Source: Gari tellinella (Eukaryota; Mollusca; Bivalvia; Cardiida; Psammobiidae). From it: a stretch of DNA of 64,000 nucleotides. The notes under the pieces are model-generated. The model saw nothing but the letters and a program-made list of their open reading frames with translations. It was not told the origin of the DNA and did no database searches. Where the stretch lies: NCBI GenBank assembly GCA_922989275.2, contig OV277869.1, positions 39,478,189 through 39,542,188 of the forward strand. Reading direction: 5' to 3'. This document shows positions 11,875-58,491 of the stretch, in pieces. The first letter of the stretch is position 1. Each line of letters begins with the position of its first letter. The position numbers and the translations under genes are program-made.

Positions 11875-12169
11875 TGTGCTGCCTCTCTACAACGACCCTC
11901 TGAAACCCTTTCGCGACTGCACTATCGTCTCTTTAAAATGTCGTGTCTTTTTGTCTCCAAGTCACATAATGGACATTTTGACACCAAAATAACAACACTT
12001 AGACGAGTTGCAAACAGCTTAAATCAAGATCACACGCCGAGTTACGTCTGCTCTCGATTCATGCTGTTTGCAAATGTAAGCAAATTACACTCTCTATAAC
12101 AGCTCCTCTCGAACAACACGTGCAATATCTGGCTCCCCTTTGGTTTTGTTGAAAAGAGGGAACACTGTA
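11873..12169 (-). repeat. Family B MITE, diverged, abutting family A
   Basis: GTGCTGCCTCTCTACAACGA at left, GAGGGAACACTG-TA at right, with GAGTTGCAAACAGC and GTTACGTCTGCTC as a shrunken core. The left join with the preceding A copy suggests insertion near A's right TIR, later eroded. Confidence 0.7.
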
Positions 12170-12197
12170 CAATAATGAATAAAAACAGATGAACAGA

Positions 12198-12447
12198 TAC
12201 AGTGGAGAATCTGTTATTCTTTTCCGTTTAAACGCAAACGTACGCAAACACAAATCACTAAAACGTAGAAAAGAAAAACTTTTGGACAATTCTGATAATT
12301 CTTGTTTAGTTTGGTGGCAAACAGTTTGGAGCCTGATCAGACGCCGGGTTACCCGGCGTCTGATCTGGCTCCAAACTGTTTGCACTGCAAATAATAGTTT
12401 TAGCGTAAACACGTTTATTGGGAAAGAATAACAGATTCTCCACTGTA
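12198..12447 (+). repeat. Family A MITE, young 246-bp subfamily
   Basis: Perfect TA-CAGTGGAGAATCTG ends on both sides. The core palindrome (12317-12387) is intact with GGGTTACCC at its centre and one T:T mismatch between arms (GCCTGATCAG / CTGATCTGGC). Confidence 0.93.
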
Positions 12448-12595
12448 GCGAACAGATTTAAAGCTGCACACATTTTTCCTAGATCTCCATTAAACACGCG
12501 TAATGAATGTTTACTGCTTTATAAAGAAAAATTGAATTTTTTATATTTCGCATATTTATGAACAGACAATTATTGATGTGTTATGTGTGATATTG

Positions 12596-12844
12596 ATTAT
12601 TGACTCTTTCAATGCCAATGTCGCCAAATGCGACTTTGCAAGCAGTTGGGATCTTGATCAGACGCTGCGAAACGCAGCATCTCATCAGGATACAAACTGC
12701 TTGACACTCGTATTGACATTTCTTCTGTCTAAACAGCATAAGATCTGACTTTAAAGATATTGCAGACGACACTACCAATGCAGACGGAATTTTAGCGATA
12801 AGAGGGCGAAAGCAGACGATACAACTTTGCAGCGAAAACATTAA
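12596..12844. repeat. Family H MITE, old copy
   Basis: GACTCTTTCAATGCCAATG start, core GCAGTTGGGATCTTGATCAG ... CATCTCATCAGGATACAAAC, then CAGACGACACTACC and GCAGCGAAAACA-TTAA. Termini are decayed. Confidence 0.55.
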
Positions 12845-13039
12845 GCAAAACCTTACACGTGTGGCAGTAATTTTACTTTAATCAAGTCTAAATACATGTA
12901 TGCAAGGTCATTTGTTTCTCATAACTAAGTCGCTTACAGCTATTTTCAATCCTGTCGTTGAACAAAAAGCCATCAGAATGTCAGATCACATTGTCTGCAG
13001 TAAAAACTACTAAGAAGCAGCACTATTTGCAACAATACC

Positions 13040-13202
13040 GACGAAGATCTTCTACGTGTAAACGCACACGAAACGCAAACGCATTGCAATAGAATGGCGG
13101 AAAACACAACATTTTGACAGTTCATTTTATACTGTTCTTCTGAATGACAAACGGTTTTAGCGTTAAAATCGCTATTTGAAAAGAATAACGTTTTCTCCAC
13201 TG
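13040..13202 (+). repeat. Family A MITE with the core lost
   Basis: GTAAACGCACACGAAACGCA on the left and TTTTAGCGTTAAAATCGC, ATAACGTTTTCTCCACTG on the right are A flanks. Only AATGACAAACGGTTTTAG remains where the palindrome should be. Confidence 0.65.
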
Positions 13203-13720
13203 TTCTTCATTGAATTTGGCATGTCATACCAAAGTATAAATATGACATATATGCACCAAAATATTTTACAAATTGACCTTGATCTTTGACCTAGTTTTAC
13301 TGTATTTTAACTGATCTGCAAAAGCAGACTAACGTTGGCACTCGCATGCGGTGCTCTTGCTACTGAATACATGTACAATTAACAATGGGAAAGTACCATT
13401 CTTTAGGCAGTAATGTCGGGAGTTTAATCTGTTTAAACTATGTTCTTTGGCCGACTTTGCCAACAACAATACTTGTTTTGATAGATCCATTGAGCGAAAC
13501 CATCAGAAAATTCCTGTTCCGGTTAGTATACCTAAATGCATTCGTAATTGAGAGAAGATAATTTCAATTTAGATAAGGCATTTAACTGCTATTTTCGGCT
13601 GCCACCTGGAGTTAAGTTTTACGAACCGGTCAAGTTAAGTTCAGTGGGAGAATACTTTAATATTTCCCCAAACACCTAAATAAGCTCGTGAAAAACTTAT
13701 GCTGTCCATTTAAAAATGTT
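13203..13720. other. Unassigned sequence
   Basis: No family ends or coding frame recognised. Confidence 0.4.
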
Positions 13721-13721
13721 G

Positions 13722-13790
13722 ATGACAGATTAGACGCCTACGTGTGTTAACCCGGCGTCTGATAAGGCTCCAAAATGTTTGCTACTCCAT
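13722..13790. repeat. Isolated half core of family A type
   Basis: AGATTAGACGCC...GTTAACCCGGCGTCTGATAA and GGCTCCAAAATGTTTGCTAC. Only the centre and right arm are clear. Confidence 0.6.
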
Positions 13791-13800
13791 TTTGAATATA

Positions 13801-14050
13801 TACAGTGGTGAATCTGTTATTCTTTCCCGTTTAAACGCAAACGTACGCAAACGCAAAGCACTAAAACGTAGAAAAGAACAACTTTTGGACAATTCTGATG
13901 ATTATTATTTATCTTGGTGGCAAACAGTTTGGAGCCTGATCAGACGCCGGGTTACCCGGCGTCTGATCTGGCTCCAAACTGTTTGCACTGCAAATAATAG
14001 TTTTAGCGTAAACGCGTTTATTGGGAAAGAATAACAGATTCTCCACTGTA
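13801..14050 (+). repeat. Family A MITE, young 246-bp subfamily
   Basis: TA-CAGTGGTGAATCTG left, CAGATTCTCCACTG-TA right; intact core at 13920-13990. One substitution in the left TIR. Confidence 0.92.
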
Positions 14051-14116
14051 TATAAAAAATGCTTTAAATGCATGTCTGTGTCAAACCGTGCAGATCAAGA
14101 CCAGCGCTAACACAGT

Positions 14117-14313
14117 TAGTTCCATTGGAAACATTTTGGAGACAGATCAGACGCCGGATAACCCGGCGTTTGATCAGGCTCTAAACTGTTGGCCCCTCAG
14201 ATTTAAATAAATGGTGAGAATTTGCAAAAAGCTGTAGTTTTAAGCATTTTAGTACAAGCGTTTTCCGTTTCGATTGCGTTTAAACGGGAAAGATTGACGT
14301 TTTCTCCACTGTA
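14117..14313 (-). repeat. Family A MITE lacking its left TIR
   Basis: Starts in the core (CATTTTGGAGACAGATCAGA) and continues through GATTGCGTTTAAACGGGAAA to TTTTCTCCACTG-TA. Confidence 0.75.
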
Positions 14314-14727
14314 TATATACGCAACCATTTGAGCCATCGAGAATGATTGTAAAAGTTGTTATAACAAGTCTCGTAATCAACATAAAACAAAATAAGTGTA
14401 AACGTAAATGAGTTTTTTTTCTGAATAAGATTCAGTTTGCATTGTGCAAGCTAGCATTTCCTTTGTGTTAGTATAGTATTTAATTTACCTGACTATGTAC
14501 TATTGGCACAGTAGGCAGACGGTCCGATGTCTTGGTGTAAGCCCATGTGACATTGGCATCATATTGTCATGATTATTTCTGCGCATAAGTTTCAAATTTC
14601 CATTTGTGGTTAGAATTCGAAAATGTATATTGTCGAGCTTTTCTGGTAAAGGGCTAAACGCTATGGATCAAAACTAAGTATTATGACATTAGATACACAG
14701 AGAAACTCGGCATCTCATATAGAAAAA
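14314..14727. other. Unassigned sequence
   Basis: No repeat family or coding frame recognised. Confidence 0.4.
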
Positions 14728-15000
14728 ATCAAACGCGTTTATTGGGGAAAAACGTAATAACCACTGTGTCTAAATCTACAAGCGTTTCATGTTTATAGTG
14801 TTATACATATAACAGGTAATCATTTTTCCATCATTTCTTTTATAATATCATCATCTTATTATTATTATCATAACATCTATTATCATGTTATTACTATGAT
14901 TAATTTTCCTTTAGTGTTATCATAACACTCATGTTAGTTTAAATAATAGTTTTAGCGTAAACGCTTTTATTTGGAAAGAAAAAATGTCTTCTCAACTGTA
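14728..15000. repeat. Two family A right-end fragments
   Basis: AAACGCGTTTATTGGGG...ATAACCACTGTG (14728-14768) and ATAATAGTTTTAGCGTAAAC ... TTCTCAACTG-TA (14938-15000) are terminal pieces. Between them is AT-rich sequence without a family match. Confidence 0.6.
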
Positions 15001-15380
15001 TCAAGTAGAAATAATTATATTGAAAATAATTTCCTTATTATTAATTTTATAAATAAAGTTATCATAATTATGAAATATTTAAATATATGATTTATTCCAA
15101 TACTGATGAATACCACGCAGCACGTAAAGTTTACCATTTCAAGTACTTAAATAAGTTACAGACATATGCGTTGTTAATTAGGCATATCATGGATAAAAAT
15201 AGCCGCACGTGTACATGTTTTTATCACAAATCTTCTTAAATTAGTACGAGTCTATCTGGACTCCAGATGCCAGTGTGATAACACTGATAATGAAGATAAC
15301 ACCGATTTATACGAGGTTTTTAATGTTCTAAATTTACAATTAATGGCATGCATTGATTCGCTTAGTGTTATGCATCTTCT
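15001..15380. other. Unassigned AT-rich sequence
   Basis: Nothing recognised. Confidence 0.4.
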
Positions 15381-15440
15381 TACAGTAGAAACTACCTCAT
15401 TCTTTCCCATTTAAACGCAAGCAAAGCGAGAGCAGATTGA
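15381..15440 (+). repeat. Family A left-end fragment
   Basis: TA-CAGTAGAAACTAC...TTTCCCATTTAAACGCAAGC; breaks off before the core. Confidence 0.6.
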
Positions 15441-15648
15441 TATAACATTTTGAATTGTTGTTGTTTCAATTAAAGTTCAGTTACTTTATAACGGAAAACG
15501 TCTAATCAAGCAATGTTGATCGTATTTCTTATGTATGACCCCCTTATGTATGGGGTTGTATTGAAGATGCTTTAAAAATATTTACTGGATTAGTGTACAT
15601 CCAAATAAATTGACAAGAAATTCATTCGAGATATCGGTTATGTTCTTA

Positions 15649-15735
15649 TACCGTGGAGAAGACGTTATATTTTCCCTATAAATGCGTTTATGTGAAAACT
15701 ATTGTTTCCAGTGCAAATGGTTTGTAGCCAAACTC
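15649..15735 (-). repeat. Family A left-end fragment
   Basis: TA-CCGTGGAGAAGACGTTAT, AAATGCGTTTATGTG, then CAGTGCAAATGGTTTGTAGC, where the core is cut short. Confidence 0.65.
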
Positions 15736-15789
15736 GTCCTATTATAGCAACCATAACATATGGTATTATACTTTGCAATGTAGATCCTG

Positions 15790-15814
15790 GTTCTTCTTCT
15801 TCTTCTTCTTCTTG
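15790..15814. repeat. (TTC)n microsatellite
   Basis: Eight TTC units. Confidence 0.9.
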
Positions 15815-16013
15815 ATACTTCTCTCCATCAAGAATGATGATTATAAGAAGGCGCTGTATCATAAATTATTATTTACAAATGTGAAAGTGATAAATATAGA
15901 GTGAATTGATAACAAAATAAAAGCAGTATAGTAGTTTAGATCAAATCTACTCTATAACGGATATGGTGACAATTGTCCTGAAGTCAACAACTGTTGGAGG
16001 ACCCTTTACGATC

Positions 16014-16377
16014 TACAGCGCTCCCTCTCTACAACAACACCCATTGGGAGACAAACAATGTGTGTGTTGTTTGGAGGGAGTCGTTATAGGGAGGGAAATT
16101 GACCGAAATTTGCTGACAGCTTAAATCCAGATCAGACGCCGCGTAACGCGGCGTCTGGTCTGGATTCAAGCTGTTTACCACTCGTCATTAAGCTTTATTT
16201 TGTCAAAATGATGATTATGTAACTTTTAGAAAAAACAGCAGACGACAAATTTAAACAGACGTTGCTGCAGCCGTGAAATGGTTAGAAATAATTTGTGTTG
16301 TTTGGGAACCAGCGACAAAGGTCGTTGTAAGGAGGGAATCGTTGTTGGGAGGGTCGCTGTAGAGAGGGAGCGCTGTA
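16014..16377 (+). repeat. Family B MITE, full length
   Basis: TA-CAGCGCTCCCTCTCTACAAC left, GTAGAGAGGGAGCGCTG-TA right. Inner inverted blocks: GGAGGGAGTCGTTATAGGGA near the left, GGAGGGAATCGTTG near the right. Core AGCTTAAATCCAGATCAGAC...GCGTAACGC (16119-16180), followed by CAGCAGACGACAAATTTAAA. Confidence 0.92.
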
Positions 16378-16512
16378 ACTGTTTTGGATCTGTATTGCTT
16401 GTTCTTACTTTCAATTGTGTGAAGAGTTTCTCTTTACTTCCATGATGTCATAAGCTTTAAACAATTGCCGTCTGCTTTATTCCTAACTAATGGCTGATTT
16501 GTGTTATTTTAC

Positions 16513-16729
16513 TTAACCCTTTCAGTGCCTTACCCCGAGTACAGTAGTTATTTGCAAACAGTTTAGATCCTGATCAGACACCGCGTAAAGCGGCGTCTGG
16601 TCAGGATCCAAACTGTTTGACACTCGTTTCAATATTTCTTAAGTCAAAATATCTAAATATTGTTTTTTAGAAATAAAATCAAACAACAATTGTTTAAATT
16701 TGATAAAATCATAGCAGTGAAGGGGTTAA
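16513..16729. repeat. Family H MITE, full length
   Basis: TTAA-CCCTTTCAGTGCC and GCAGTGAAGGGG-TTAA. The core AACAGTTTAGATCCTGATCA ... TGGTCAGGATCCAAACTGTT occupies 16555-16620, close to the left end. A good reference copy for H. Confidence 0.88.
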
Positions 16730-18153: not shown

Positions 18154-18289
18154 CACAGTGGAAAAAAAGTTGTTCCTGTCCATTTTAACGCAAAAGCACA
18201 CGTATTGAAATAAAACAAAGAAAATGACAAATTATTCAAAATAGTAGTTTAAGCGTTTATATGGAAATAATAACGTCTTCTCCACTGTA
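18154..18289 (+). repeat. Family A MITE, internally deleted (core absent)
   Basis: Both TIRs present (CAGTGGAAAAAAAGTTGTTC; ATAACGTCTTCTCCACTG-TA). The whole palindrome and part of the flanks are missing, leaving about 130 bases. Confidence 0.8.
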
Positions 18290-30690: not shown

Positions 30691-31039
30691 CATATAGGGA
30701 GGTTTTATTTAACATCCTTAAAGTCCCATTGTGTTTTCAGACCTTTTCTTAATGTCTGAAATACAACAACGGTTAATAATAATGTTTGAACATTCTTATG
30801 GGCCAAACTGATCAATGAAATGAAGAAGACGGACCTAAATCACAAAAAAGGCCGACTTAAAATCATAACAAACCGAAAATAGAACGTCTGACATAAACAT
30901 TACCACACGGCTTAGTATCACGTGATACAGTCGAAATCAACTTCACCGTGTGCAACCGTTTCTATCTTCGCCCGTCCATCCATCAGTCAGTTAGATTATC
31001 ACACTTTTTTGTCCGCTCTCTAACTCGAATATTTTTTAT

Positions 31040-31800
31040 CCGATCTTCCACAAACTTGCTGAAAATGTTCATTGATATAAAATCAAGGTTTAGTTTGATT
31101 ACTACTAAAATCGCATAAGGACTGTTTGAGTTATTGCCTGTTTATTAATAAAAATGACTGTTTCAGTCATTTTTGCACTCTAAAACAAACAGTTTTTATC
31201 GGATATTCACCAAACTTGCTGAAAATATTTATTCATATAAAATTTAGGTATAGTATGATTATTACTAAAATAGCATGTGGCATATCTGAGTTTTTGCCCT
31301 TTATGTATTAAAAAACGACTGTTTTCAGCAAGTTTTGCTCTCTAACACAAATACGTTTTATTGGATCTTGGCCAAACTTGCTGAAAATGTTTATTGATAT
31401 AAAATCAAGGTTAAGTTTGATTACTGCTAAAATCGCATAAGGTATATCTGAGTTATTGCCTTTTTATTAATAAAAAATGACTGTTTCAGTCATTTTTGCA
31501 CCCTAACACATACAGTTTTTATCGGATATTCACCAAACTTGCTGAAAATATTTAATTATATAAGATTTAGGTCTAGTTTGATTATTACAAAAATTGCATG
31601 TGGCATGTCTGAGGTTTGGCCCTTTAAGTATTAAAAATGAATGTTTCAGCATTTTTTGCTTTCTAACACATACAGTTTATATCAGATATTCACCAAACTT
31701 GTTGAAAATGTTTATTTATATAAAATCTAGGTCAGTCATCTTAACTACCCAAATCGCACAAGGCATGTTGGAGTTATTGCCCTTGAATGACTAAAAATTT
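31040..31800 (+). repeat. Tandem array of about 161 bp units inside family F
   Basis: CAAACTTGCTGAAAAT recurs at 31051, 31211, 31373, 31534 and (as CAAACTTGTTGAAAAT) 31694, giving spacings of 160-162. Each unit also has GACTGTTTCAG, TTTTTGC, CTAACACA and AAAATCGCAT. An inverted unit (CAAGTTTGGTGAAGATC) follows at about 31900. Confidence 0.9.
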
Positions 31801-32061
31801 CATTTTTTAATTATTCAAGGGCAATAACTCAGACCTGCCTCATGCGATTTTGCTAGTTATTGAGCCTGACCTAGATTCTATACTAATAAACATTTGTGTA
31901 GCAAGTTTGGTGAAGATCCCAAAGAAGTGTTTGAGTTAGAGAGCGGACAAGGCTGAAACAGTCATTTTCAGCAAGCTCAATGTATAGATCCTCCGTAAAA
32001 GATTTAAATCGCTTACCCCCAGTGAATAATAATACACACGTTTTGACTGAACCTCATAGTG

Positions 32062-32264
32062 TTTAGCCCTGTGCCTACTGGTCGTAATTTACAAACTGTT
32101 TGAATCTAGAAAGACGCCGCGTAACGCGGCGTCTCATCTGGATCCAAACTGTTTGACACTCGTCTTAAGGTTTGTTTAATTAAAACAATGCATAAATCTA
32201 AACTGAACAAATTTTGCAGACGACAATGTCAAAGCAGACGTCTGTGCAGCAGAATAAGGGTTAA
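32062..32264. repeat. Family H MITE inside family F copy 1
   Basis: TTAGCCCTGTGCC...core TGTTTGAATCTAGAAAGACG-CCGCGTAACGCGG...AGAATAAGGG-TTAA. The same H sits at the same place in F copies 2 and 3. Confidence 0.85.
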
Positions 32265-32545
32265 CCAGATGCTCCAGTACACATGTTTAAGCGGGAGTAA
32301 TCTGAACTTATCTAACATTTTCTCACTCATTTCAGCACCGAATGCTATGGTGTTACTACTGATTAAACCGTCTCTTCGAGACAATTTTAATGAGTATAAC
32401 CCCATTGGGTTTAAAAGCAGAAATAAAGAATTTTAGTTTTCGAAATACTTCCGTTATCTGGAGCCCTGTATTTACAGAGGTGTCCTTCTTTCCATTCACA
32501 AGGGAGGCTTTTTAATTTGTGCAGCACAAAAATATTATAAATAAA

Positions 32546-32880
32546 ATAACTTTCCCGCAAACAATTTATATCTAATAATGTATCGCACCATAAATGTCTA
32601 GCTACACCTATCCAGCCAAAGATGCATTATATTCTTGGCGTCTGCAACACTTTTTTTATTTATTCTTACTGAAGTATAACTAGTGTCACTTATTGTAAAT
32701 GTCATGGGTGTCTTATGTAATAAGTGTTTAGTAACGCAGAATAAGAAAATATCAGTTCCAGTAAAAAAGGCGGTATGCTTTCCTAAAAATCACATTTATA
32801 TATGCTTAAACCATTATTTCAAATGCAACAATTGTGAGCTTGATCACACGCAGGGTTACCTGGAGTCTTATTAGGCTTAT
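32546..32880. repeat. Extra block in F copy 1 with family A remnant
   Basis: Contains A-like TTCCAGTAAAAAAGG, TATATATGCTTAAACCATTATTTC and a core arm TTGTGAGCTTGATCACACGC. It is bracketed by two copies of a roughly 91-base F segment (32455-32545 and 32880-32970), whereas F copy 2 has that segment once. Confidence 0.75.
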
Positions 32881-33301
32881 CTGGAGCCCTGTATTTACAG
32901 AGTTGTCCTTCTTTCCATTCACAAGGGAGGCTTTTTAATTTGTGCTGCACCAAAATATTATAAATAAAATTTAAAAAGCGAATTTCTTAGATAAAGCCGG
33001 TTTTTGTGAAAGAATCACGTCCCATGTAGTTCAAATGGGACCCCAAACAACCGTTTTATGCAGGTTTATCAAAAACACAATGCGGCTTTAAACGGTACCA
33101 AATGCTAATTCAAAACAGTAAGCTGTATACACCATTACATCTTTCTAAATGAACACAGTTCAAAATAAAGATAATTATGTAGATGAGTACGATTTGAAAT
33201 TGTTCGATATATCCAAACTCAGATGCTTTAATATTTCCTAATTACTTACACATTATTATTCCACTGGGACGTTTATATGCTGAAAATAGTAATGTCATTT
33301 G

Positions 33302-33524
33302 TTAATACGAACCTTTCTATTACGACCACTAAATTGTGTAAATTATAAGGGGATTACCACAAGTGACTACATGTACTACATGTCAAAGCAATGTGACAGT
33401 AAAACAGAAAGCTCCTTTAGGAGCTTTCTATTTTTCGGTCATTTTGCTTTGAGCTCCCAACTATCTTTAATACAATCAATTAGACTTCTTTTTAGTGGTA
33501 GTAAAAGAGAGGTTTTAATGTGGT
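33302..33524 (+). repeat. Family D MITE in unit 1
   Basis: TA-CGAACCTTTCTATTACGACC left, GGTAGTAAAAGAGAGGTTTTA right; second core around AGAAAGCTCCTTTAGGAGCTTTCT. Ends are mutated relative to 59042-59251. Confidence 0.8.
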
Positions 33525-33759
33525 TTGGAATCGGGTCAAATGCCGTATAATTCGGTGAGTGATTTAGCTTAAACAGTAAGCTGTATACACCATTACATCT
33601 TTCTAAATGAACACAGTTCAAAATAAAGATAATTATGTAGATGAGTACGATTTGAAATTGTTCGATATATCCAAACTCAGATGCTTTAATATTTCCTAAT
33701 TACTTACACATTATTATTCCACTGGGACGTTTATATGCTGAAAATAGTAATGTCATTTG

Positions 33760-33982
33760 TTAATACGAACCTTTCTATTACGACCACTAAATTGTGTAAA
33801 TTATAAGGGGATTACCACAAGTGACTACATGTACTACATGTCAAAGCAATGTGACAGTAAAACAGAAAGCTCCTTTAGGAGCTTTCTATTTTTCGGTCAT
33901 TTTGCTTTGAGCTCCCAACTATCTTTAATACAATCAATTAGACTTCTTTTTAGTGGTAGTAAAAGAGAGGTTTTAATGTGGT
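33760..33982 (+). repeat. Family D MITE in unit 2
   Basis: Identical to the copy 458 bases upstream. Confidence 0.8.
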
Positions 33983-34136
33983 TTGGAATCGGGTCAAATG
34001 CCGTATAATTCGGTGAGTGATTTAGCTTAAACTAATTAGCTTCTCTGCTCAAATAAGTTGTCGACATTAAATGGCAAGTTTCAATCAGTTTAACATACAT
34101 GTAATTACAATTGAATTGGAATAGAGTTAGGTCCTG

Positions 34137-36749: not shown

Positions 36750-36910
36750 GAAGAATGACTTAAGAAATATCGATTCATCTGTCAAACAGTTTGGATCCTG
36801 ATCAAACGTGACGTCTGATCTGTTTGGATCCTGATTGGTTACACGGCGTCTGATCTTGATCCAAACTGTTTGCAAAGTCGACTTTATGCGACTTTGGGGC
36901 CGAATGGCTT
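36750..36910. repeat. Family H MITE with duplicated core arm
   Basis: TCAAACAGTTTGGATCCTGATC appears, then again as TGTTTGGATCCTGATTGG, before GGCGTCTGATCTTGATCCAAACTG. The flank GCAAAGTCGACTTTATGCGAC is shared with 1-40. Confidence 0.65.
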
Positions 36911-38236: not shown

Positions 38237-38690
38237 TACGATTGAGAAGACGTTCTGGGGCCCGTTCCATAAAACTTCGTACGACAAAAACGATCGTAAG
38301 TCAGACTATAAAAGTCTCAATAATTATTTATTTCTCCATCTAATCCTGTCTTGTGACATCTTTTTGGAATCGTCTTGAAAAGACGATTCCAAAGAGATGT
38401 CACAGGACAGGATTAGATAGAGAAATCAGAAATTAAAAGCATTAAAAGTTTTGACTTACGACCGTTTTTGTCGTACGAAGTTTTATGAAACGGGCCCATG
38501 GTTTCCCAATAAACTCGTTTATACTCAAAATCCTTATGCCCATTACAAATAATTTAAAGAAAGATCAGACGCCGTGTAACCCCACATGTGACCAGGCTCT
38601 AAATTGTTTACCACTCAAATTTCAGTAAATGTAAGAAGTTTTAAATCTGGCGACTGATCAGGATAAAACTGTAAAACCGTCGCTTTACTG
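38237..38690 (-). repeat. Family A MITE carrying family K
   Basis: TA-CGATTGAGAAGACGTT, then K, then TTTCCCAATAAACTCGTTTA and a worn core (38545-38615). The right end is not identifiable. Confidence 0.7.
38257..38497. mobile_element. Family K MITE, best copy
   Basis: GGGGCCCGTTCCATAAAACT-TCGTACGACAAAAACG at left and its inverse CGTTTTTGTCGTACGAAGTT-TTATGAAACGGGCCC at right. The central palindrome is TCCTGTCTTGTGACATC / GATGTCACAGGACAGGA around GGAATCGTCTTGAAAAGACGATTCC. No clear target duplication. Confidence 0.92.
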
Positions 38691-38758
38691 TAAACACTGT
38701 CTTCAGAATTGTATGTCCGTTTTTAAAAATGCAAGTGACAAATGTGAAGCACACGATA

Positions 38759-39008
38759 AACAGTGGAGAAAACGTTATTCTTTCCCAATAAACGCGTTTA
38801 CGCTAAAACTTTTATTTTCACTGCAAACAGTTTGGAGCCAGATCAGACGCCGGGTAACCCGGCGTCTGATCTGGCTCCAAACTGTTTGCCACCAAACTAA
38901 ACAAGAATTATCAGAATTGTCCAAAAGTTGTTCTTTTCTACGTTTTAGTGATTTGCGTTTGCGTACGTTTGCGTTTGAACGGGAAAGAATAACAGATTCT
39001 CCACTGTA
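38759..39008 (-). repeat. Family A MITE, young 246-bp subfamily
   Basis: CAGTGGAGAAAACGTTATTC left (preceded by AA, not TA), CAGATTCTCCACTG-TA right. Core 38823-38890 is a perfect palindrome here (GCCAGATCAG / CTGATCTGGC). Confidence 0.92.
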
Positions 39009-39017
39009 CATGTACTC

Positions 39018-39253
39018 ATTTGTAGACATTTAATATGTTTCTGCACTGAAGAAAATACATTTAGTTCCATATCATACAGAATATGTATCATTAGAAGTAT
39101 GTTCTATATTCTAGCAGATAGTAGCTTAAAACAGGCTGTAAGTAAAGCAGAATGCGCATCAAGGCACATTCTGCTTTAGAAATGTACTTTCAACCTGCTT
39201 TAAGTGGTCACCTATTTTCAATACGAGACACGGATTACAGGGTAATGGGTTAA
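39018..39253 (+). repeat. Family C MITE
   Basis: Left terminus decayed. GCACTGAAGAAAATAC, a second core with a small insertion in its right arm (GAAATGTAC at about 39179), GTGGTCACCTATTTTC, then GGTAATGGG-TTAA. Confidence 0.75.
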
Positions 39254-41342: not shown

Positions 41343-41524
41343 AGGTGTTATTAAATCCAGCTAAAAATTACATTGTTTAAAGTCCCATTGTGTTTTCAGA
41401 CCTTTTCGTAATGTCTGAAATACAATAACGGCTAATAATAATGTTTGAACATTCTTATGGGCCAAACTGATCTATGCAATGATGAAGACGGACCTAAATC
41501 ACCAAAAAGGGCGATTTAAAATCA

Positions 41525-41774
41525 TACAGTGGAGAATCTGTTATTCTTTCCCGTTTAAACGCAAACATACGCAAACGCAAAGCTCTAAAACGTAGAAAAG
41601 AACAACTTTTGGACAATTCTGATAATTCTTGTTTAGTTTGGTGGTAAACAGTTTGGAGCCTGATCAGACGCCGGGTTACCCGGCGTCTGATCTGGCTCCA
41701 AACTGTTTGCACTGCAAATAATAGTTTTAGCGTAAACGCGTTTATTGGGAAAGAATAACAGATTCTCCACTGTA
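41525..41774 (+). repeat. Family A MITE, young, inserted in family F with empty site known
   Basis: TA-CAGTGGAGAATCTG ... CAGATTCTCCACTG-TA. F copy 1 at 30873-30885 reads AAATCATAACAAA without the insertion, while here it reads AAATCA-TA[element]TA-ACAAA. This directly shows a TA target duplication. Confidence 0.96.
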
Positions 41775-42953
41775 ACAAACCGAAAATAGAACGTCTGATA
41801 TAAACATTACCACACGGCTTAGTATCACGTGATACAGCCGGATTCAACTTCACCGTGTGCAACCGTTATCTACCTTCGCCCGTCCATCCATCAGTCAGTT
41901 AGACTATCACACTTTTTTGTCCGCTCTCTAACTCGAATATTTTTTATCCGATCTTCCACAAACTTGCTGAAAATGTTCATTGATATAAAATCAAGGTTTA
42001 GTTTGATTACTACTAAAATCGCTTAAGGTATTTTTCGAGTTACATGTATTGCCTGTTTATTAATAAAAAATGACTGTTTCAGTCATTTTTGCACTCGAAA
42101 ACAAACAGCTTTTATCGGATATTCACCAAACATGCTGAAAATATTCTTTCATATAAAATTTAGGTCTAGTTTGATTATTACTAAAATCGCATGTGGCATA
42201 TCTGAGTTTTTGCCCTTTATGTATTAGAAATGACTGTTTTCAGCAAATTTTGCTCTCCAACACAAATACTTTTCTTAATCTTCACCAAACTTGCTGAAAG
42301 TTTTCATTAATATAAAATCAAGGTTAGGTTTGAATCCTACTAAAATCGCATGAGGCATGTTGGAGTAATAGCCCTTTAATTATTAAAAAATGGCTGTTTC
42401 AGCCTTTTTTGCTCTCTAACATAAAAGAGTTTTCATCGGATCTTCACCAAACTTGCTGAAATTCTTTATTTATATAAAATCTAGGTCCAGTGTGATTATT
42501 ACTAAAGTCCCATAAGGATTATCTTAGTTATTGCCCTTTATGTATTAAAAAGGACTGTTTCACCATTTTTTGCTCTCTAACACAAATACTTTTTTTCCTT
42601 GACCTAGATTTAATACCAATACACGTTGTCAGCAAGTTTGGTCAAGATCCAATAAAAAGTGTTTGTGTTAGAGAGCAGAAAATGCTGAAACAGTCATTTT
42701 TTAATTATTCAAGGACAATAACTCAGACATGCCTCATGCGATTTTGCTAGTTATTGAACCTGACCTAGATTCTATACTAATAAACATTTGTAGCAAGATT
42801 GATGAAGATAAAAAAAGAAGTGTTTGAGTTAGAGAGCGGACAAGGCTGAAACAGTCATTTTCAGCAAGCCCAAGGTATAGATCCTCCGTAATGTTTTTAA
42901 TCGCTTACCCATGGTGAATAATATGTACACGTTGTCACTGGATCAAGTAGTGT

Positions 42954-43166
42954 TTAACCCTGTGCCCATTGGTCGTAACTTTACAGGAGTTTACAAACTG
43001 TTTGAATCTAGAAAGACGCCGCGTAACGCGGCGTCTCATCTGGATCCAAACTGTTCGACACTCGTCTTAAGGTTTGTTTAATTAAAACAATGCATAAATC
43101 TAAACTGAACAAATTTTGCAGACGACAATGTCAAAGCAGACGTCTGTGCAGCAGAATAAGGGTTAA
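42954..43166. repeat. Family H MITE inside family F copy 2
   Basis: TTAA-CCCTGTGCCCATTGG ... AGAATAAGGG-TTAA, core 42994-43058. Confidence 0.88.
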
Positions 43167-43690
43167 CAGGGTAATTCTCAGTGCTCCAGCTATACACATG
43201 TAACCGGGAGTAATCTGAACTAATCTAACATTTTCTCACTCATTTCAGCACCGAATGCTATGGTGTTACTACTGATTAAACCGTCTCTTCGATACACTTT
43301 TAATGAGTATGACACCATTGGGTTTAAACGCAGAAACAAAGATTTTAGTGTTTCGAAATACTTCCGTTATCTGGAGCCCTGTATTTACAGAGTTGTCCTT
43401 CTTTCCATTCACAAGGGAGGCTTTTTAATTTGTGCAGCACAAAAATATTATAAATAAAATTTAAAAAGCGAATTTCTTAGATAAAGCCGGTTTTTGTGAA
43501 AGAATCACGTCCTACGTAGTTCAAATGGGACCCCAAACAACCGTTTTATGCAGGTTTCTCAAACACACAATGCGGCTTTAACAGCCAGTGTTAGAAAGAC
43601 ACGTTTGTGTTGTGTTGTAAGAAACATGAGCCATACACTGAGAAAAGCAGACTTACTGCAAAGGACTTCAGATAAGAGGAAGTAAACTGT

Positions 43691-43834: not shown

Positions 43835-43929
43835 CTCATTAGAATCGTCTCAAAAATACAATTCTAAGGAAAAGTAACACCGTAAGGTTCAATGCAGAAA
43901 TAACGACTTTAGGTTTTGAAATACCCTCT

Positions 43930-44178
43930 TACAGTGGAGTCCTGTTATTCTTTCCCGTTTAAACGCAAACGTACGCAAACGCAAATCACTAAAACGTAGA
44001 AAAGAACAACTTTTGGACAATTCTGATAATTCTTGTTTATCTTGGTGGCAAACAGTTTGGAGCCTGATCAGACGCCGGGTTACCCGGCGTCTGATCTGGC
44101 TCCAAACTGTTTGTAATTGAAATAATAGTTTTAGCGTAAACGCGTTTATTGGGAAAGAATTACAGATTCTCCACTGTA
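43930..44178 (+). repeat. Family A MITE, young 246-bp subfamily
   Basis: TA-CAGTGGAGTCCTG left, CAGATTCTCCACTG-TA right; core 44047-44113 intact. The flanks (GGTTTTGAAATACCCTCT / CATGTATCTGGAGCTCTG) align with the F sequence TTTCGAAATACTTCCG-TTATCTGGAGCCCTG, so the host is a diverged F fragment. Confidence 0.92.
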
Positions 44179-44269
44179 CATGTATCTGGAGCTCTGTAGC
44201 AGCACTGCAATATTGTGTAGACCAAAGAATCAATATCTGATTTTTTTTCTAGATAAAATGCTAAAAATG

Positions 44270-47437: not shown

Positions 47438-47457
47438 ATATCTGGTGGTGACAGGGT

Positions 47458-47707
47458 TACAGTGGAGAATCTGTTATTCTTTCCCAATAAACGCGTTTAC
47501 GCTAAAACTACTATTTGCAGTGCAAACAGTTTGGAGCCTGATCAGACGCCGGGTAACCCGGCGTCTGATCAGGCTCCAAACTGTTTGCCACCAAGATAAA
47601 CAAGAATTATCAGAATTGTCCACAAGTTGTTCTTTTCTACGTTTTAGTGCTTTGCGTTTGCGTACGTTTGCGTTTAAACGGGAAAGAATAACAGATTATC
47701 CACTGTA
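47458..47707 (-). repeat. Family A MITE, young 246-bp subfamily
   Basis: TA-CAGTGGAGAATCTGTTATTC both ends (right has one change, GATTATCCACTG). Core 47519-47590 is a perfect palindrome around GGGTAACCC. Confidence 0.94.
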
Positions 47708-47724
47708 CATGGTTGAATACCATA

Positions 47725-48071
47725 TACAGTGTTCCCTCTCTACAACGGCCCTCCCGACAACGACTCCCTCTTTTCAACGACAAATACTGTAGTTCCCTTA
47801 ACATGACAATCTTTTCTAACGCTTTAACTGCTGCAATATCGTCTGCTTAAAATTGTCGTCTGCTGCTTTTCTCAAAATCACGTATTGAACATTTTACAGA
47901 AAAAACATAATGTCGAGTGACAAACAGCTTGAATCCAGAGCAGACGCCGCGTTACGCGGCGTCTGTTCTGGATTCAAGCTGTTTGCAGATGTAAGCATAT
48001 TTCACTCCCTATAACGACTCCCTCCGAACAACGCACACATGTGGTTGTCGTTGTAGAGAGGGAGCGCTGTA
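47725..48071 (-). repeat. Family B MITE, full length
   Basis: TA-CAGTGTTCCCTCTCTACAAC left, GTAGAGAGGGAGCGCTG-TA right. Core 47922-47987 with GCCGCGTTACGCGGC. Confidence 0.93.
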
Positions 48072-48673: not shown

Positions 48674-49439
48674 ATGTTGCCTCATTTATCGCTAGAAGAA
48701 CGTAACCGAGCCATCGGGACGTTGGAAGCCGGTATCAGCATCCATCGTGTTGCAGGTATATGCAACATTCCAACAAGAAATATCAGTCATCTCCAATAGC
48801 GGTTCAGATTAGAAGCTTTAATTCATTAATAAATGTGAAATAATAGAATATACATGTATTAAATACTTATTCATAACAGTTCATGAGTTGTTGACGTCAT
48901 TGTTACGCCAGTCAACAACGACGTTCTTTCCATTTTCCCAAACAAACCGGAAGTATTGGTGACATACATGTACCAAGGTCTAGACGCCAAGAATTTTTGT
49001 CACCATCTGGTGATATGTACACATGCCTTACTACCTCAGAACTTCAAAAGTCGGTTCACGTTACTTAGGAATAAGTCTGTAACGTTACTTAGGTATACAT
49101 TTCAACGTCAAACCGGTCAGGGTCATATCAGATGCGCGTTTCAACAAAATAATGCCCGCCCTTATGTCGCAAGCGTAACCATCGACCTTTTACATGCCAA
49201 CCACATCGAAACGCTTCATTGATCTCAGGAATTGGCACCCATACAGCATGTTTGGGAGTAGGTGTGACTTAACGCAAGTGCCCGTCACTGCGTTTCGACG
49301 TTAGAGCAAATGTGGCTAGCAGTGCGTCAGGAGTGGCGAATAATGTCCCAACAGACAAGTGATCAGGGGTGTTATCAGGTCAATGAGGCGTCGTTGTGTT
49401 GCATGCGTCGGTGCGTAGTGAGGACATACCCGCTATTGA
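48674..49439 (+). pseudogene. Decayed Tc1-like (Tc1/mariner) transposase
   Basis: The 5' part (48674-48799) reads MLPHLSLEERNRAI... then GTLEAGISIHRVAGICNIP before a stop: the helix-turn-helix opening of Tc1-type transposases. A middle stretch is missing. From about 48956 an open frame reads GLDAKNFCHHLVI, then CAFQQNNARPYVASV, the region of the second catalytic Asp (usually QDNARPH), where Asp is replaced by Asn. Then come LAPIQHVWE and, after a frameshift, IRGVIRSMRRRCVACVG and the C-terminal GHTRY-stop at 49437. The family is normally about 340 residues in one frame. Here there are several stops, at least two frame changes and a large deletion, so it cannot make transposase. It does show that a TA-targeting Tc1 element once lived in this genome. 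Its own TIRs were not found, so a link to families A, B or E is only possible. Confidence 0.9.
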
Positions 49440-53219: not shown

Positions 53220-55151
53220 TTAAAACCGCATTGTGTTTTTGAGAAACCTGCATAAAACGGTTGTTTGGGGTCCCATTTTAACTACGTGGGACGTGAATCT
53301 TTCACAAAAACCGGCTTTATCCAAGAAATTCGCTTTTTAAATTTTATTTATAATAGTTTTGTGCTGCACAAATTAAAAAGCCTCCCTTGAGAATGGAAAG
53401 AAGGACAACTCTGTAAATACAGGGCTCCAGATAACGGAAGTATTTCGAAAACTAAAATCTTTATTTCTGCTTTCAAACCCAATGGTGTCATACTCATTAA
53501 AAGTGTATCGAAGAGACGGTTTAATCAGTAGTAACACCATAGCATTCGGTGCTGAAATGAGTGAGAAAATGTTAGATTAGTTCAGATTAATCCCGCTTAC
53601 ATGTGTACTGGAGCATCTGGTTAACCCTTATTCTGCTGCACATACGTCTGCTTTGACATTGTCGTCTGCAAAATTTGTTCAGTTTAGATTTATGCATTGT
53701 TTCAATTAAACAAACCTTAAGACGAGTGTCAAACAGTTTGGATCCAGATAAGACGACGCGTTACGCGGCGTCTTTCTAGATTCAAACAGTTTGTAAACTC
53801 CGTAAAGTTACGACCAGTAGGCACAGGGTTAAACTATGAGATCCAGTCAAAATGTGTAATTATTATTCACTGTGGGTGAGCGATTAAAAAAAATACGGAG
53901 AATCTTTACCTTGGGCTTGCTGAAAATGACTGTTTCAGCCTTGTCCGCTCCCTAACTCAAACGCTTCTTTTTGGATCTTCATCAAACTTGCTACAAATGT
54001 TTATTAGTATATAATCTAGGTCAGATTCAATAACTAGCAAAATCGCATGAGGCATGTCTGAGTTATTGCCCTTGAATAATTAAAAAATGACTGTTTCAGC
54101 ATTTTCTGCTCTCTAACACAAACACTTTTTATTGGATCTTCACCAAACTTGCTGACAATGTGTATTGGTATTAAATCTAGGTCAAGAAAAAAAAGAGTAT
54201 TTGTGTTAGAGAGCAAACAATGGTGAAACAGTCCTTTTTAATACATAAAGGGCAATAACTAAGATAATCCTTATGGGACCTTAGTAATAATCACACTGGA
54301 CCTAGATTTTATATAAATAAAATTTTTCAGCAAGTTTGGTGAAGATCCGATGAAAACTCTTTGTGTTAGAGAGCAAAAAAGGCTGAAACAGCCATTTTTT
54401 AAAATAATTAAAGGGCTATTACTCCAACATGCCTTATGCGATTTTAGTAGGATTCAAACCTAACCTTGATTTTATATCAATGAAAACTGTCAGCAAGTTT
54501 GGTGAAGATTAAAAAAAAAAAAGTATTTGTGTTGGAGAGCAAAACTTGCAGTCATTTCTAATACATAAAGGGCAAACACTCAGATATGCAACATGCGATT
54601 TTAGTAATAATCAAACTAGACCTAAATTTTATATGAATAAATATTTTCAGCATGTTTGGTGAAAATCCGATAAAAGCTGTTTGTTTTAGAGTGCAAACAT
54701 GACTGAAACAGTCATTTTCTATTAATTAACAGGAAATATCTCAAAAATACCTTATGCGATTTTAGTAGTAATCAAACTAAACATTGATTTTATATGAATG
54801 AACATTTTCAGCAAGTTTGTGGACGATCGGATAAAAAATAGTTGAGTTAGAGAGCGGACAATAAAGTGTGATAGTCTAACTGACTGATGGATGGACGGGC
54901 GGAGGTAGATACGGTTGCACCCCGTGAAGTTGTTTTCGGCTGTATCACGTGATACTTAGCCGTGTGGAAATGTTTATGTCAGACGTTCTATTTTCGGTTT
55001 GTTATGATTTTAAATCGCTATTTTTGTGATTTATGTCAGTCTTCATCATTTCATAGATCAGTTTGGGCCATAAGAATGTTCAAACATTATTATTAACCGT
55101 TATTGTATTTCAGGCATTGAGAAAAGGTCTGAAAACACAATGGGACTTTAA
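53220..55151 (-). mobile_element. Family F element, copy 3 (reverse)
   Basis: TTAA-AACCGCATTGTG left, CACAATGGGACT-TTAA right, reversed relative to copies 1 and 2. Contains the reversed 3' unique part (53330-53460), H copy, and arrays in both orientations. It is inserted in a family J repeat, whose two halves flank it. Confidence 0.9.
53621..53832. repeat. Family H MITE inside family F copy 3
   Basis: TTAA-CCCTTATTCTGCTGC ... GGCACAGGG-TTAA; core 53737-53802 with one arm lesion (GGATCCAGATAAGACGACGC). Confidence 0.85.
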
Positions 55152-58349: not shown

Positions 58350-58491
58350 TGTTCATGTTTAAACGCAAACGGAACGCACAAGAAGGCAATAAAATGTAAT
58401 TTGTGACAATGTTTTGACAATCGAGTTTATTTATTGAGTGTCAAACAGTTATGAGCGTTTATTGGGAACGAATAAGGTCTTCTCCACTGTA
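58350..58491 (+). repeat. Family A MITE with the core deleted
   Basis: CATGTTTAAACGCAAACGGA left, TCAAACAGTTATGAGCG then TTTATTGGGAACGAATAAGG...CTTCTCCACTG-TA right. Confidence 0.75.

Follow-up and report, generated by a model that had tools for sequence, protein, structure and literature searches.

A palindromic core shared by TA- and TTAA-target miniature transposable elements of Gari tellinella and its possible role in their spread

We analyzed 64,000 nucleotides of the genome of the bivalve Gari tellinella (assembly GCA_922989275.2, contig OV277869.1, positions 39,478,189 to 39,542,188; this whole stretch is called the window and its own numbering is used throughout), in which miniature inverted-repeat transposable elements (MITEs) with unrelated ends and different target sites carry a common palindromic core. 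The interval 12198-16729 contains the four elements that a first-pass annotation, made from the sequence alone, had placed there, A8 and A10 (TACAGT...ACTGTA), B2 (TACAGC...GCTGTA) and Hc (TTAACC...GGTTAA), and in all four the core is centered at 0.34-0.39 of the element length from the short side. The core is a near-perfect palindrome of 67 nt, for which we built a hidden Markov model (HMM) on 27 seed cores. This model finds seven core loci at E ≤ 0.01 in the interval (Table 1) and 79 in the window, of which 60 reach E ≤ 1e-5 and 55 of those are full length; none was found at E ≤ 0.01 in ten dinucleotide shuffles of the window.

Table 1. Core palindromes and the elements around them in the interval 12198-16729, with the core of repeat F
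Feature	Position	Strand	Remarks
A8, TA-target MITE of family A	12198..12447	-	250 bp
A8 core palindrome	12317..12383	-	67 nt, symmetric at 64/67 positions
Core of an additional TTAA-type element, M	12639..12703	+	E 6e-14
TTAA-family right arm beside core M, containing GCAGACGACA	12704..12810	+	TR model E 3e-23; M is among its 11 training copies
Degraded core	13716..13782	-	E 5e-11; matches no flank model
A10, MITE of family A	13801..14050	-	250 bp
A10 core palindrome	13920..13986	-	core HMM
Core of a third A-type copy	14129..14192	+	AR flank 14197-14314; no match to the AL flank model
B2, TA-target MITE of family B	16014..16377	+	364 bp
B2 core palindrome	16114..16177	+	core HMM
TTAA-element right arm embedded in B2, through GTGAAATGGTTA at the TTAA-end place	16179..16284	+	E 3e-12 with the TR model (training set of TTAA copies only); alignment
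Hc, TTAA-target MITE	16513..16729	+	217 bp, TTAA at both ends
Hc core palindrome	16554..16619	+	core HMM, folding
Hc right arm up to the TTAA end	16620..16729	+	TR model, alignment
Core of the TTAA element within repeat F	42994..43057	+	other F-copy cores 32092-32155 (+) and 53730-53793 (-)

The carriers of the core are two TA-target MITE families, A and B, and many TTAA-target families (together called T), of which H is one. Clustering of the flanks gives two families with TA targets and several with TTAA targets. From the TA target and the CAGT-type ends of A8, A10 and B2, we take A and B to be of the Tc1/mariner type. Hc shows the TTAA target duplication of piggyBac/TTAA MITEs, and its termini, CCCTTTCAGTGC / GCAGTGAAGGGG, roughly fit the piggyBac-type motif CC[C/T]T with a terminal inverted repeat (TIR) of 12-19 bp (PMC2872659); J-type ends match in the first few bases only. 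When flank models were applied to 314 kb (the window and 25 further regions), 209 cores at E ≤ 1e-5 were divided into 84 of A, 55 of T, 26 of B and 44 without a family, and many of the last have visible TTAA ends. A loose pattern for TTAA at both ends is matched by 20 of the 55 T cores and by one core each of A (1/84) and B (1/26). The core is also present in repeat F, whose three copies can be aligned along 1.7-1.85 kb with 86-93% identity and each contain a J-type TTAA element with the core, in agreement with the earlier proposal that F carries the core through an internal TTAA element. The F copies extend approximately over 30718-32547, 41773-43581 and around 53730, and the repeat also holds tandem arrays of ~160 bp (31015-31798, 41923-42593 and 54198-54855).

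The core is extremely abundant outside the window. In the genome as counted (1,597,604,326 bases, 80 contigs), the arm 11-mer GATCAGACGCC occurs 582,391 times (291,405 forward and 290,986 reverse) compared with 51 copies (32 and 19) of its reversed control, and a string that joins A flank to A core, TATTATTTNCANTGCAAACAGTTTGGAGCC, occurs 32,792 and 32,826 times on the two strands (control, 0). Eighteen of 20 sampled 10-kb regions contain the core, with 118 loci at E ≤ 0.01, and five additional regions gave 48 cores with a wider model; the window is richer, at 1.2 cores per kb against 0.6 in the first 20-region sample. Scans with exact patterns gave no match in genome contigs, and in viral contigs none in one scan and two unrelated matches in another. 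A doubled, nested core was observed in one TTAA-type locus (36783-36873).

Aligned core to core, A and B score 57 of 67, A and H 57, and B and H 56 (84-85%), whereas palindromes made from shuffled arms score 25-26, so that the real cores stand 10.1-11.3 standard scores (z) higher and the likeness noticed in the first-pass annotation is well beyond that of random palindromes. The common palindrome in A, B and H was thus correctly recognized, but the sequence plan given for it is slightly off for B (GAATCC/GGATTC) and H (GGATCC). Single-strand folding predicted with DNA parameters is strong in all five cores folded (z -9.2 to -17.3).

Besides the core, B and T have in common a right arm of ~110 nt that extends to the TTAA element's own end. 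Compared with H, J, K and O, the B arm gives z values of 2.2-6.8 in its first 60 nt and 3.8-7.4 in the 55 nt that follow, and its likeness to N and P is weaker. All 12 listed B cores have a right flank that matches a right-arm model (TR) built from 11 TTAA copies (E 2e-3 to 1e-13), and in B2 the match extends as far as the place of the TTAA end, where the B consensus of 24 copies reads GCAGCAGTGAAAGCGTTAGA and Hc reads ATAGCAGTGAAGGGGTTAA; the left side of B lacks a TTAA end. The motif GCAGACGACA, earlier described as adjoining the core in both B and H, is indeed shared but begins ~60 nt away, inside this arm. Because the right arm of B reaches the TTAA element's own end, the sequences give good support to the view that B contains a TTAA MITE minus its left end. 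In all 21 pairings among the B and T families, identity is higher in the core than in the right arm. The flanks of A show no similarity to those of any family compared (z -1.3 to 1.2) except for CACTC adjoining the core, and what A shares with the others is limited to the palindrome and a few bases beside it. The earlier idea that the core was passed on by nested insertion and end replacement is therefore supported for B, with its embedded TTAA arm and end, and for F, whereas for A the sequences do not show it. Since the shared part in A ends sharply at the palindrome edges, one could imagine that the palindrome itself is mobile and inserts into transposons. We consider this highly improbable, because B carries the whole TTAA right arm, the cores cluster by family (see below), and loci with a core alone (44 of 209 cores without a flank) are indistinguishable from degraded elements.

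To follow the history of the core, we placed the 55 full-length cores in a tree, in which B forms one side of a branch (94/86) and 31 of the 32 A cores, with one T core and one family-less core, form one group (99/97), the T cores are scattered, and most forks are without resolution. Both flanks could be assigned for 108 cores and agree in 106 of them (70 A/A, 22 B/B and 14 T/T). Of the two discordant loci, L017:4057 is a TTAA element adjoining a B end, and the discordance of L014:5605, for which both matches are weak (E 0.027 and 0.011), probably arises because the B right arm resembles the T right arm. The tree and the flanks thus give no sign of ongoing exchange of cores between families, and repeated exchange is not supported. 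The first-pass annotation had also reasoned that cores clustering by family as deeply as the termini would speak against a shared module; the cores do group by family, yet across families they resemble one another far more closely than the flanks do. At L027:2300-2640, fragments of a TTAA-type core lie beside A-element ends, an arrangement showing that insertion of A and T elements next to or within one another does happen. As for direction, in a set of 22 cores the mean T-T distance is 0.212, the nearest T core is at 0.106 from A and 0.106 from B, A and B differ by 0.136, and both fall inside the T diversity. Transfer from T to B is well supported by the embedded arm, and from the distances we infer the direction T to A.

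In 22 cores (one A, one B and 20 TTAA), 91.5% of the cells pair, and 19 of the 32 base pairs have changed on both sides, compared with 7.3 after shuffling (0 of 500 shuffles as high) and 3-7 when the arms are slid; two-sided changed cells number 44 against 10.4 expected. A smaller set of ten cores gave two-sided changes in 10 of 33 pairs (4.0 expected). The steadiest sequence is found in two blocks per arm, CAAACAG and GATCAGA. Pairing kept at otherwise free positions points to a hairpin or cruciform. The strong predicted folding would also suit an RNA hairpin kept by selection as a source of small RNA, as the first-pass annotation had considered. However, mismatch cells read on the + strand comprise 17 G-U and 29 A-C, and the missing G-U excess means no sign of selection as RNA; Rfam at its gathering threshold gave no match in the whole window, and we regard this alternative as very unlikely. 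Alternatively, the core could be a symmetric site for a protein, either a host factor or an accessory site for transposase, rather than a hairpin. The two near-invariant blocks per arm agree with such a site, as do the excess of CAGACG (122 in the window against 13.7 expected, repeated also in the right arms of B and T) and the subterminal palindromes that piggyBac-type transposases are described as binding (PMC11707139). Yet the positions outside the blocks change in pairs as well, something that a dyad site would not require, and the transposases of A and T should differ, making a single transposase site unlikely, so that we think a protein site is possible but rather improbable.

The palindrome might also be maintained by mutation without function, if the core is simply inherited and template switching from arm to arm corrects it. 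Among A copies there are seven complementary two-sided changes against ~2.3 expected, and such changes are common between families, both consistent with this process; in B, 0 were seen (0.6 expected), and template switching alone should not lower the substitution rate, which is what we observe on internal branches. We consider this explanation unlikely. For the rate measurement, elements were picked by models of the flanks only (53 of A and 24 of B, with 47 and 21 used), and the core in them was full in 45, partial in five and absent in three of A, and 21, three and none of B. Relative to the rest of the element, the core changed at a rate of 0.22 in A and 0.06 in B on internal branches, which represent the source lineages, and at 0.73 and 0.50 on terminal branches; in neither family did any of 100 random sets of flank columns give an internal-to-terminal ratio as low. 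An earlier test on copies found through their cores gave 0.15 and 0.51 for A (28 copies, 0 of 60 random sets as low) and 0.13 and 0.46 for B (10 copies, 2 of 60). Identity to the consensus is likewise higher in the core (A 0.934, B 0.926) than in the TIRs (0.884 and 0.878 for the 28-nt TIRs of A, 0.858 and 0.849 for B), and the consensuses of A subfamilies differ at 0 of 67 core positions compared with 26 of 182 flank positions (p 0.0003). Singletons, a cruder measure than branch rates, are fewer in the core of young A copies (4/603 against 36/1656 in the flank, p 0.018). Ectopic gene conversion that homogenizes the cores of the genome could produce this last deficit, but the B cores group together, 31 of 32 A cores make up a separate group, and family-specific core letters persist, so that conversion too seems very improbable. 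Along with the palindrome's own mobility and the RNA hairpin, we rank it low. Such a rate pattern would be expected of a core that is important while elements multiply and freer afterwards, and its slower change suggests that the core helps the elements to spread. The earlier proposal that the hairpin is kept for a function thus receives indirect support, from the slow internal branches and the two-sided changes.

The account that we favor, to which as a whole we give about an even chance, is that the core originated as an internal cis element of diverse TTAA-target, piggyBac-like MITEs, from which two or more families with TA targets captured it. In B, a TTAA MITE would have been inserted and then have lost its left end; in A, the route would no longer be visible; F would be a third carrier. 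This historical part is probable in our judgment. After capture, the core would have been retained with its arm base-pairing and its two blocks per arm, presumably by selection rather than by a mutational process and for a role at the DNA level. It would most likely act as a DNA hairpin or cruciform amid an element of 210-365 bp and might aid mobilization in cis under unrelated transposases; its presence in both TA and TTAA elements argues for a role not tied to one transposase. For such a cis-acting role in amplification, we regard the chances as balanced. The hairpin could serve as a flexible joint, or as a fork-linked structure, that brings both ends together whichever transposase acts. A formula for DNA looping, in which short spacing hinders looping (PMC3687335), might apply to the ends of such short elements, an extension that is our own, and the flexible joint itself is a doubtful mechanism. 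Even more generally, and only tentatively, the palindrome may be a portable aid independent of the transposase, a DNA hairpin able to promote the spread of whatever short cut-and-paste element acquires it, which MITE families with unrelated ends gain by nested insertion and to which they owe hundreds of thousands of copies.

Several results weigh against this account. In approximately unbiased (AU) tests, neither A nor T is rejected as a single group (p 0.395 and 0.281), and no branch of the 22-core tree is well supported, which leaves the direction from T to A unproved. The 22 cores used for pairing are single copies and were picked by hand, and the excess of two-sided changes in A leaves room for arm-to-arm correction. 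The core rates are low on terminal branches as well, the outermost 12 nt of A (0.94) are as conserved as its core, so that the core is not unique, and singletons in all A copies (132/5487 flank, 56/1959 core, p 0.28) and in B (p 0.12) show no significant difference. Since the copies used to train the flank models had first been found through the core, the sets are not fully core-blind and some bias may remain. In the corals with the most similar MITEs (discussed below), the available main text mentions neither palindrome nor hairpin (PMC2872659).

Other features of the window were noted. Three A elements (13048-13203, 18155-18289 and 58352-58491) keep both flanks with the palindrome deleted, in the first apparently between AGTTT repeats. 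Core inversion in A was considered and rejected, as the three asymmetric sites read A-A-A in 32 of 53 rows and no mix of two core orientations is apparent. An open frame of 117-132 aa crosses the core in A elements (12059-12457, 38635-39033, 41494-41865, 43889-44248 and 47439-47792) and is similar among them; a protein search found no relatives at E ≤ 0.01, and the frame is probably due to chance. Pfam gave nothing above its cut-off for the six of 13 listed open reading frames (ORFs) searched, and the ORF at 48887-49222, which by eye looks like the end of a mariner-type transposase, has no Pfam match. No tRNA gene (ARAGORN) or Rfam match that could mark the tRNA-like head of a short interspersed nuclear element (SINE) was found in the window, although degenerate heads are still possible. 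A 458-bp tandem duplication (33113-34032, 2.0 copies, 100% identical) is either very recent or an assembly artifact.

The classification of MITEs rests on their ends, and what lies between is usually taken as filler. In the elements described here, it is this interior that evolves slowly, occurs on both sides of the divide between TA and TTAA targets and retains its base pairing by way of two-sided changes. If the core does aid mobilization, it would be a general cis determinant of MITE success, testable with any transposase, and would bear on why certain MITEs are amplified to huge numbers, which is still an open question. In the literature searched, which mostly did not include subscription papers, we found no description of this core, and searches with sequence strings returned titles not on transposons. 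The closest known system is that of the CMITEs of Acropora corals. These are TTAA MITEs whose ends differ, while a 75-base stretch of the interior is conserved across families more strongly than the TIRs (PMC2872659), a pattern that the elements here reproduce. Their CCCTTT-like ends and piggyBac-like character resemble those of the T families, and they also include a new element made by insertion; they differ in that all families are TTAA and ~100 bp long (PMC2872659), and the 60-nt CMITE consensus has no sequence match in the window (best 16 nt, E 0.10). MER6 with its SINE V domain resembles A and B as a Tc1/mariner-type MITE with other ends that harbors a conserved module of another element class, but the source is a SINE, the module is not described as a palindrome in the part of the report available, and the capture is single (PMC6887750). 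Palindromes important for transposase binding are known within the TTAA transposons piggyBac and piggyBat; these are short (19 bp in piggyBac), subterminal and unrelated in sequence between the two (PMC11707139), whereas the core described here is 67 nt long, internal and present in TA elements too. The pearl-family MITEs of bivalves are also modular and non-autonomous, and one member has a conserved palindrome, but it lies near tandem-repeat junctions, and the available text describes no core across target-site classes (PMC5139131). What was already known from the coral elements, then, is that TTAA MITEs with differing ends can have a better conserved inside (PMC2872659); what is new here is that this inside is a palindrome conserved in its pairing that crosses into TA elements, with one route of capture visible in B and its slow evolution placed on the source lineages.

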